NCBI GenBank assembly: GCA_900466475.1
Contig: UBMI01000021.1
Coordinates: 434,001 to 498,000, forward strand
Reading direction: 5' to 3'
Source of the DNA: Hyphomicrobiales bacterium
GTDB lineage: Bacteria > Pseudomonadota > Alphaproteobacteria > Rhizobiales > Rhizobiaceae
Length of the DNA stretch: 64,000 nt
The position numbers were made by a program, and so were the translations under genes. Each line of letters begins with the position of its first letter. Position 1 is the stretch's first letter. Positions 26,887-29,042 of the stretch are shown piece by piece. Below the pieces are notes generated by a model. It was not told where the DNA came from. It saw only the letters and a program-made list of their open reading frames with translations, and did no database searches.

Positions 26887-27417
26887 TCAGGCGACCCGGA
26901 CAGCCTTGCGGCGTTCGCTCACCGGCTGATAGGCGAGACGCTGGTGGTAGTTGCAATAGGGCGATGAATCCGGGGAGTCGCAGCCGCAGAAGTAGAAATC
27001 GTCCTTCAGCGGATCGCCGACCGGCCACTTGCAGGTGCGCTCCGTCAGTTCCGTCAGGCCGAGGCGACGCGAAATAGGCACGACCACGTTTTTGGCCGGC
27101 ACGTATTCCATTTCCTCGACCGTTTCGATCTCGATCTCTTCCTTCAGCATCGTTGCGCCCTGCTGGCGCGTCACGGTGCGGGTGGCGATGCGAGATGCAT
27201 AGTTCGGGGCGCGGGGCGCAGAGGTGTTGCGCTTGGGCGCACGCGCCGTGGTTGCGGTGCCGCCGGCCTTGGCGCGACCGGGAAGACTGAGCCGGTGAAC
27301 CTTGCCGATAACAGCGTTTCTACTTACTCCGCCAAGTTGCGCAGCGATCTGGCTGGCACTCAGTCCCTCCGACCAAAGCTTCTTGAGCTTTTCGACACGC
27401 TCGTCTGTCCAGTTCAT
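26887..27417 (-). CDS. gcrA: Cell-cycle regulator GcrA
   Basis: 176 aa. The N-terminal HTH has the invariant GcrA opening MNWTDERVEKLKKLWSEGLS followed by SASQIAAQLGGVSRNAVIGK. A basic Ala/Pro-rich linker follows, and the C-terminal sigma70-interacting region has CKWPVGDP and FCGCDSPDSSPYCNYHQRLAY. GcrA binds sigma70 and activates promoters carrying CcrM-methylated GANTC sites in S phase. It is monocistronic with its own terminator. Its upstream region carries an unusual GANTC cluster. Confidence 0.97.
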   Translation of the reverse strand: MNWTDERVEKLKKLWSEGLSASQIAAQLGGVSRNAVIGKVHRLSLPGRAKAGGTATTARAPKRNTSAPRAPNYASRIATRTVTRQQGATMLKEEIEIETVEEMEYVPAKNVVVPISRRLGLTELTERTCKWPVGDPLKDDFYFCGCDSPDSSPYCNYHQRLAYQPVSERRKAVRVA

Positions 27418-27842
27418 GCCCTGTCTCCACCTTTCGCGTTGGTGATGGCAGAATCCCTCACCGTTGCCTCGGAAGCCTCCGAAGCAAGAAACGCCTGATC
27501 AATTTTGGTGACTAGTTCCGCCGCATGCAGTCTAGTAATTGAACTTTAACCTAGTGTGAGCCTGACTCTGTGACAAGAGTCGCAGGAATCCGATGAATCC
27601 GAATTCGTAGTTTTCCCCAACTTGCTTCCCGGGAGAGTCATTTCTGCAACATTAGCTGTTGATAGACCTGTAATGCGGATTGCAGGCTTGACGCATGCGC
27701 TAAATCCTCAGTTTTGTTGACATTGCAGTGCGAAAAGTAAATAGTGCTTCAGGCCGCCGAAAGGCGGCATTTTTAATTTTTCGGACCGGGTTTTCTTAGC
27801 CGGAGTCCGTTGCCTCAGAGCCTGATTGAAGGAGATCGCGCC
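27418..27842. promoter_or_regulatory. gcrA/argD divergent region with GANTC cluster
   Basis: 425 bases without a gene. CcrM sites GANTC occur at 27451, 27564, 27577, 27586, 27595, 27635 and 27803; five of them fall within 76 bases (27564-27639). The first two of that group sit inside the inverted repeat GACTCT/AGAGTC. This is the expected place for gcrA promoter control and suggests methylation-dependent regulation of gcrA, argD or both. Confidence 0.7.
27717..27773 (+). promoter_or_regulatory. argD leader: possible promoter and GNRA hairpin with U-tract
   Basis: A TTGACA box at 27717-27722 has an A/T-rich -10-like stretch 17 bases later. A hairpin GCCGCC-GAAA-GGCGGC (27753-27768) is followed by ATTTTT and further T-runs. 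It has terminator form but no plus-strand gene lies upstream, so it is a leader structure, attenuator or the end of a short RNA. argD starts 70 bases later. Confidence 0.5.
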
Positions 27843-29042
27843 ATGGCTGAAGCCTCGCCGCTTTATGATACCTATTCTCGTGCCCCGCTGCGGTTCGAGC
27901 GAGGTGAAGGCGTCTGGCTGATCACCGAAACCGGCGAGCGATATCTGGATTTTGGCGCGGGCGTTGCCGTCACCTCCGTCGGACACGGCAATCCGCATGT
28001 CGTGGCCGCTCTCAAGGATCAGGCTGACAAGGTCTGGCACCTCTCCAACGTCTATGAGATCCCCGGCCAGGAAAAGCTTGCCAACCGCCTGACCGAGGCC
28101 ACCTTCGCCGACAAGGTGTTCTTCACCAATTCCGGTGCCGAGGCGCTCGAATGCGCCATCAAGACAGCGCGCCGCTACCAGTTCTCCAAGGGTCATCCCG
28201 AGCGTTTCCATATCATCACCTTCGAAGGCGCCTTCCACGGCCGCACGCTGGCGACGATCGCTGCCGGCGGCCAGGAAAAATATCTCGAAGGTTTCGGCCC
28301 CAAGACCCCCGGTTTCGACCAGGTTCCTTTCGGCGATATCGAGGCGGTACGCGCGGCGATTACCGACAAGACGGCCGGCATCCTCATCGAACCCGTGCAG
28401 GGTGAGGGTGGCGTGCGCCCGGTGACACCTGAATTCATGAAGGCGCTCCGCCAGCTCTGCGATGAGCATGGCCTGCTCCTCATTCTCGATGAAGTTCAGA
28501 CCGGCGTCGGCCGCACCGGCAAGCTCTTCGCCCATGAATGGTCGGGTGTCACGCCCGATATCATGGCTGTTGCGAAGGGCATCGGCGGCGGCTTCCCGCT
28601 CGGCGCCTGCCTCGCGACTGCAGAAGCAGCCTCCGGCATGAAGGCCGGCACGCATGGTTCCACCTATGGCGGCAATCCGCTGGCCATGGCCGTCGGTAAC
28701 GCGGTTCTCGATGTCATCCTTGCCGAGGGCTTCCTGCAGCACGTGCGCGATGTCACCCTCGTCTTCCGTCAGGGCCTTGCCTCGCTCAAGGATCGCTATC
28801 CCGATGTGATCGAAGATATCAGGGGCGAAGGTCTGCTGCTCGGCGTCAAGGCTGCCATCCCCTCGGCAGAGCTGCTGAAGGAAATCCGCGCAGCACACCT
28901 TCTGGCAATACCGGCAGGCGACAATGTCATCCGCCTGCTGCCGCCGCTGGTCGTAACCGCCGAGGAGGCGCGCGAGGGTCTTTCCCGTCTTGAACGCGCT
29001 GCCGAAAGCATCCGTGCCGCCAAGGTCAAGAAGACCGCTTGA
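27843..29042 (+). CDS. argD: Acetylornithine aminotransferase
   Basis: 399 aa class III PLP aminotransferase. Conserved elements are [41 protein letters not shown] and the PLP-lysine motif [28 protein letters not shown] follows. It converts N-acetylglutamate semialdehyde to N-acetylornithine in arginine synthesis. The ATG at 27843 has AAGGAG upstream. argF follows 45 bases later and hslO after that. The alternative, a general ornithine or succinylornithine aminotransferase, is made unlikely by argF. Confidence 0.95.

Follow-up and report, generated by a model that had tools for sequence, protein, structure and literature searches.

The region between gcrA and argD in the genome of this soil bacterium carries a dense group of GANTC sites, which raises the question of which gene these sites serve and how. 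GcrA is a global cell-cycle regulator, and to our knowledge the timing of its level is poorly known outside Caulobacter. The locus was analysed within a window of 64,000 nucleotides, i.e. the whole stretch of DNA under study, to which all coordinates refer. Here, gcrA (26887–27417, minus strand; an open reading frame of 176 aa, PF07750 with E = 2e-60) and argD (27843–29042, plus strand; a class-III aminotransferase gene with an OTCase gene next to it) diverge from a common intergenic region of 425 bp, and domain matches bear out both gene calls of the initial annotation. The seven GANTC positions listed there (27451, 27564, 27577, 27586, 27595, 27635 and 27803) proved exact on recount and the cluster of five sites in 76 bp is confirmed. 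The accompanying yardstick of about one site per 256 bases is wrong for this genome. The window holds 80 sites, or one per 800 bases (345 ± 19 in a shuffled window), and 794 kb of the same genome (7.2 Mb in total) contain 1021, or 1.29 per kb; the true background is rarer, so that the cluster had been understated. Its five sites form the tightest five-site run in the window and the 794 kb sample, the runners-up spanning 98 and 115 bp. With a probability of roughly three in four, we attribute the cluster to the regulatory core of a CcrM-repressed gcrA promoter, in which two of the sites, denoted L and R, would bracket the −35 element. This attribution draws on the comparison of sequences described below and on analogy to a published case in Agrobacterium tumefaciens.

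Read in the direction of gcrA, i.e. along the minus strand, the region comprises the optional GANTC site U3 (27635–27639), a conserved box TTGGGGAAAAC (27610–27620) that was recognised by alignment and precedes the bracket with constant spacing, and the sites U2 (27595–27599) and U1 (27586–27590). Site L (27577–27581) abuts the upstream edge of the −35 hexamer TTGTCA (27571–27576), whereas site R (27564–27568) lies in the spacer between this hexamer and the presumed −10 element TAGGTT (27548–27553), which sequence and alignment place 17 bp from the −35. The resulting bracket reads GACTC-TTGTCA-NN-GAGTC on the minus strand (27581–27564). From the length of the S. meliloti gcrA leader (122 nt, PMC4414408) and the position of the −10 element, transcription is predicted to start at 27539–27541 on the minus strand. 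Two CtrA-type motifs overlap each other here, TAA-N7-TTACT on the minus strand (27534–27548), covering the predicted start, and TAA-N7-TTAAC on the plus strand (27536–27550). In S. meliloti, gcrA is likewise divergent from argD with CtrA motifs over its start, and a TAA-N7-TTACT on the gcrA strand overlaps a strong motif on the opposite strand (PMC3616915). The same form of the motifs at 27534–27550 supports the predicted start, although no more than 47 of the 169 distinct family upstreams have a CtrA-type motif. About 13 nt past the predicted start, the alignment reveals a conserved leader block GCATGCGGCGGA (27517–27528, minus strand). The sRNA EcpR1 pairs with the S. meliloti gcrA mRNA at the corresponding leader position (PMC4414408), and by position alone the block is the putative counterpart of this target. 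Site D (27451–27455) follows in the gcrA 5′ leader at about +85.

The sites were thus placed on the −35 element by alignment and the S. meliloti start site, and the −35 label itself is a prediction. In many promoters of the order, the hexamer most similar to a TATA element (TATTGT) is only 13 bp away from TTGTCA, less than a classical pair would require, which makes the −10 element, and hence the strict −35 label, less sure outside Rhizobium/Sinorhizobium-like promoters. On the argD side, a sigma-70-like promoter (TTGACA-17-AATAGT, 27717–27745, plus strand) was recognised by its match to the consensus, apart from the array. It is followed, ahead of argD, by a terminator-like GC hairpin with a T run (27753–27768, plus strand). 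A hairpin of this kind is present in 118 of the 169 distinct family upstreams and may act as an attenuator or a 5′ stabiliser, or else mark where another transcript ends. The one Rfam match at the locus, to Trp_leader with 21.3 bits at a cut-off of 41, was taken as chance.

The comparison drew on gcrA orthologs of 80 named contigs (the best 80 of at least 586) and of whole-genome samples of family, order and class, identical family upstreams being counted once (169 distinct of 173). Two GANTC sites exactly 13 bp apart, like L and R, are present in 144 of these 169 upstreams. Equivalents of the other sites accompany the pair: U1, 8–11 bp farther up, in 72/144; U2, 17–20 bp farther up, in 128/144; U3, 55–62 bp farther up, in 34/144; and D, in the leader 105–135 bp down, in 138/144. 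Anchored on the pair, the family consensus reads GACTCTTGTCACgGAGTC, followed by a −10-like element. Alignment can also be performed independently of GANTC, with the TTGGGGAAAAC box and TTGNC as anchors (n = 138 of 142 box-bearing family upstreams). Of the promoters so aligned, 131 have L and 135 have R, with the four fixed GANTC letters conserved to 97% and 98%, respectively, versus 60% in the flanks, and the A after the anchor TTGNC to 99%; the 138 promoters, like the 169, are related sequences and therefore no independent observations. The number of GANTC sites per 300 bp upstream of gcrA is 4.97 in the named contigs (best 80 of at least 586), 4.56 in the family and 3.47 in the order, values that are biased upward because the site counts omit 9 of the 100 family genomes with a match and 28 of the 118 in the order, for the most part genomes whose GcrA scored lowest. 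In the same DNA, seven control palindromes reach 0.25–2.06, and GANTC in gcrA coding DNA 0.33–0.58.

Among the 42 order families sampled, 32 have some member with at least three sites in 300 bp, 17 have the 13-bp pair and 21 have GANTCTTG. Outside the order the array fades to a mean of 0.8 sites where argD is adjacent and 1.6 where it is not (n = 26 class loci, one of them the order member L154; L152, L158 and L165, with no assignable start, were left out). Absence of the sites from orthologous regions, which the initial annotation had named as evidence against a regulatory role, is therefore not what the comparison returned: the array is conserved in position in the family and in part of the order. 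The bracket can nevertheless be lost. Fifteen of the 169 family upstreams have TTGNC within range and neither site, nine retain R only and one L only, and six have no TTGNC in the searched range. As the 300 bp upstream are free of sites in sampled members of the order families f2, f30 and f33, and contain none to two in those of f41, the switch is not indispensable. Loss of ccrM was considered as the cause of bracket loss, but ccrM was found in 101/101 family genomes, G214 and G126 without a bracket among them, so that the bracket can be lost in lineages with ccrM; in the order ccrM was found in 118/121. The ccrM gene of the present genome encodes 376 aa with N6_N4_Mtase (6e-70) and RAMA (3e-17) domains, and its product presumably shares the GANTC specificity of the CcrM family.

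The TTGGGGAAAAC box is a second conserved component of the promoter. The first nine letters are shared by 142 of the 169 distinct family upstreams, and its distance to site L is 39 or 40 bp in 130 of the 131 upstreams that have both; this fixed spacing suggests a factor touching RNA polymerase. Across the 7.2 Mb of the genome, the complete 11-mer is found a single time, at gcrA. A relaxed form was found at 11 of 13 order loci without argD, at 49 of 73 with argD and at none of the 26 class loci. Assignment as a DnaA box was not accepted, as the sequence differs in two positions from the Caulobacter consensus quoted in PMC2877005.

The function that we propose is most likely the one published for A. 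tumefaciens, extended here by analogy to the present species. In A. tumefaciens, six GANTC sites lie in the 250 bp upstream of gcrA, the gcrA promoter is less active in the presence of active CcrM, in E. coli as well, and gcrA is up 2.8-fold upon depletion of CcrM (PMC11514494). The two cases agree in the orthologous gene of a related genus, in the number of sites (six within 250 bp in both) and in the presence of ccrM. They differ in that the available part of PMC11514494 puts no site on a −35 element: according to a figure legend the start of the gcrA promoter could not be predicted, and no mutations of single sites in this promoter are reported there. This sole published case that we found thus left the start and the responsible sites open. 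The present comparison names L and R as candidates for the latter and gives the suggested A. tumefaciens switch an address. In terms of mechanism, CcrM sites L and R would bracket the −35 element, with two or three more sites upstream and one in the leader. Once both strands are methylated, m6A at the edge of the −35 element and in the spacer would weaken its use by sigma-70 RNA polymerase and keep gcrA low. Passage of the replication fork would leave the sites hemimethylated up to the late-cycle return of CcrM, allowing for a pulse of gcrA; CtrA over the start and a putative factor at TTGGGGAAAAC may add further control. Most likely, gcrA would be held down under full methylation and briefly open after DNA copying. 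This reading takes L and R to be the responsible sites and the hemimethylated form to be the active one, and presumes that the present species behaves like A. tumefaciens. The proposed logic resembles that of the Caulobacter ctrA P1 promoter, which is activated by hemimethylation and where GANTC at the promoter permits activity only after the fork has passed (PMC8116508). That promoter differs from the present one in driving another gene, in the single upstream GANTC named for it and in its dependence on GcrA, whereas here gcrA itself would be controlled through a bracket of two sites.

The A. tumefaciens switch was further linked to a second replication origin and the dicentric chromosome (PMC11514494), whereas the array described here is also found in genomes without detected RepC. 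The switch is thus probably independent of second replicons. A tie between the array and repABC was tried and rejected on the site counts, with on average 3.59 sites at order loci of genomes with RepC over the cut-off (n = 17) and 3.51 at the others (n = 72). As these counts are alike with and without RepC, the array is not bound to second replicons, but may still serve one.

The initial annotation had proposed methylation-linked autoregulation of gcrA. In such a scheme, GcrA bound to the methylated GANTC sites of its gene would activate or repress gcrA. The GcrA proteins of S. meliloti and Brucella abortus do bind methylated GANTC DNA (PMC3667746), GcrA ChIP peaks of B. abortus are 4.4–4.7 fold rich in GANTC (PMC6813329), and 80 of the 128 family promoters with U2 match the Caulobacter motif YGAKTCK at this site, so that GcrA may read marks other than L and R. 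The methylated promoters of Caulobacter that depend on GcrA moreover resemble the present one in having GANTC at the core promoter (PMC8725594). The extended motif of these promoters is not present at the bracket, however: YGAKTCK is matched by L in 0/144 and by R in 2/144 upstreams, and by none of the six GANTC sites within 300 bp of gcrA in the window. The effect is also one of repression, and it does not require GcrA, because active CcrM reduces the activity of the gcrA promoter of A. tumefaciens even in E. coli, a host devoid of GcrA (PMC11514494). The part of PMC6813329 considered names no GcrA peak at gcrA. Methylation control of gcrA, one half of the earlier proposal, is thus supported by the conserved array and the A. 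tumefaciens precedent; the other half, GcrA acting on its own promoter, is unlikely and not needed.

Alternatively, the arms of the bracket might be read as an inverted repeat, GACTC-N8-GAGTC, forming the operator of a dimeric protein, with the CcrM sites being incidental. The arms indeed make up an inverted repeat at a distance of 13 bp, and the central letter is nearly fixed, with C at L and G at R in 142/144 upstreams each. CcrM, for its part, tolerates any base at this position. We consider such an operator improbable, as R in the wider order also takes the forms GATTC, GACTC and GAATC, so that the repeat is broken while GANTC is kept, and the U and D sites conform to GANTC but differ in the central letter. 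The response of the A. tumefaciens promoter to CcrM in E. coli (PMC11514494) points in the same direction.

Cell-cycle control of arginine synthesis through argD, also suggested in the initial annotation, would be in keeping with the divergent arrangement and the shared 425 bp region. The array lies on the −35 element of gcrA, though, about 80–150 bp from the promoter-like site of argD, and it does not follow argD where the two genes part in the order and class. Where the 1–1.5 kb upstream contain no argD, 9 of 13 order loci keep the 13-bp pair (one of the four pair-less loci, L259, covers only 132 bp upstream), and where argD is present 22 of 73 do, whereas class loci outside the order with argD as neighbour show it in 0/10. 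As the pair stays with gcrA in the absence of argD and is missing outside the order despite argD, the array is assigned to gcrA, and a role in arginine synthesis is very doubtful. Chance clustering in AT-rich intergenic DNA (50% GC versus 61% in the window), inherited by descent, can practically be dismissed, as it is contradicted by the simulations (a run of five in 76 bp was reached in 4/20,000 random placements of the 80 sites in the window and in 3/20,000 sequences from a dinucleotide model of the intergenic region), by control palindromes without enrichment and by motif columns conserved above their flanks. Three of 15 other N-centred palindromic pentamers, CCNGG, CGNCG and GCNGC (322 to 1014 occurrences in the window), do have tighter five-site runs; all of these lie outside the gcrA–argD region, within which no other palindromic pentamer has such a run.

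Pattern searches for the bracket covered every genome of the family and order samples. The exact form GACTCTTGNCNNNGAGTC was found in 67 of 101 family genomes, once per genome and invariably at gcrA with a gap of 129–223 bp, and the reversed control gave 0 matches. The relaxed form GACTCTTGNNNNNGANTC gave 54 matches in 44 of 121 order genomes, and the reversed control 11. Of the 54, 38 are upstream of gcrA, 8 are upstream of repC on the opposite strand (the repE side) and 8 are elsewhere, the last figure being close to the level of the control. Among 115 class genomes, the relaxed bracket was present in 10; two of these are order members (the present genome and G042), and in the other eight no match was seen by eye at gcrA. 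We found no description of the bracket or its conservation in the accessible literature, the search extending to neither subscription papers nor supplements. New here are the placement of the sites on the −35 element, their conservation irrespective of RepC or argD, and the recurrence of the bracket at the promoter of the repABC antisense RNA.

The eight matches on the repC side lie 91–145 bp before the RepC domain, and the one in the present genome corresponds to the repB–repC gap of annotated plasmid records. In all eight, the Rfam family RF00489 (repABC antisense RNA) follows downstream of the bracket on the same strand, with E values of 2.2e-6 to 2e-14. The gathering score of 50 bits is reached in four (L344, L348, L352 and L360), while the other four stay below it (L347, 49.7; L349, 48.5; L354, 45.0; L351, 40.7). 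Regions upstream of repC were further compiled for 34 of 35 strong RepC matches in the order (G045:C6 was left out); TTG-N5-GANTC occurs in 25, GANTCTTG in 11 and the full pair in 9. The promoter of this antisense RNA (RepE / IncA / ctRNA) has the bracket in the form GACTC-TTGAC-NNN-GATTC. It differs from the gcrA promoter in replicon and gene, in a third GANTC that overlaps the −10 element, and in that the TTGGGGAAAAC box is found in the present genome only at gcrA. Conversely, the gcrA promoter has the GANTC-TTGNC-NNN-GANTC spacing of the repE type but drives gcrA, and is regarded as sharing the architecture without being a member. That the repE promoter is rich in GANTC has been noted before (PMC6090056). 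For the A. tumefaciens repE promoter, mutation of two of the three GANTC sites resulted in a limited but significant rise of activity in C. crescentus, while mutation of the third, over the −10 element, removed most of the activity (PMC11514494). We infer that the two activity-raising mutations hit the counterparts of L and R.

It is conceivable, albeit rather doubtful, that the bracketed −35 element (GANTC-TTGNC-NNN-GANTC) is a dedicated gate for fork passage in the order, shared by gcrA and the repABC antisense RNA with opposite effects. Full methylation would then shut both the gcrA promoter and that of the RepC-blocking antisense RNA. Copying of the chromosome would open gcrA, whereas copying of a repABC replicon would open the antisense RNA and thereby block re-firing. 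The mark would act directly through RNA polymerase, and GcrA would not be its reader. If true, a single methyl mark would provide each replicon with its own once-per-cycle reset. The two activity-raising repE mutations also improved plasmid maintenance, an effect for which the authors could not account via that promoter (PMC11514494); this speaks against the simple form of such a gate. As the comparison names two sites and shows their arrangement again at the promoter of the antisense RNA limiting repABC replication, the idea is directly testable, and what merits a test is the wider pattern of a two-site methyl bracket at the −35 element of gcrA and repE promoters alike. Separately, two genomes of one order family have a common relaxed bracket near neither gcrA nor repC (G054:C1:249906 and G091:C2:121898), possibly a third gated promoter, or chance.

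After the one at gcrA, the next GANTC clusters in the sample of the present genome are found at two other places. Six sites in 193 bp (L326:14619-14811) lie between two convergent genes, one for a chemoreceptor and one of the AstE/AspA type, and no promoter role is apparent there. The GC skew of contig C45, calculated with regard to the location of the origin, gave a weak signal. The other cluster, with seven sites in 272 bp (L314:7255-7526), lies upstream of dnaA (L314:8041-9609; DnaA domains).
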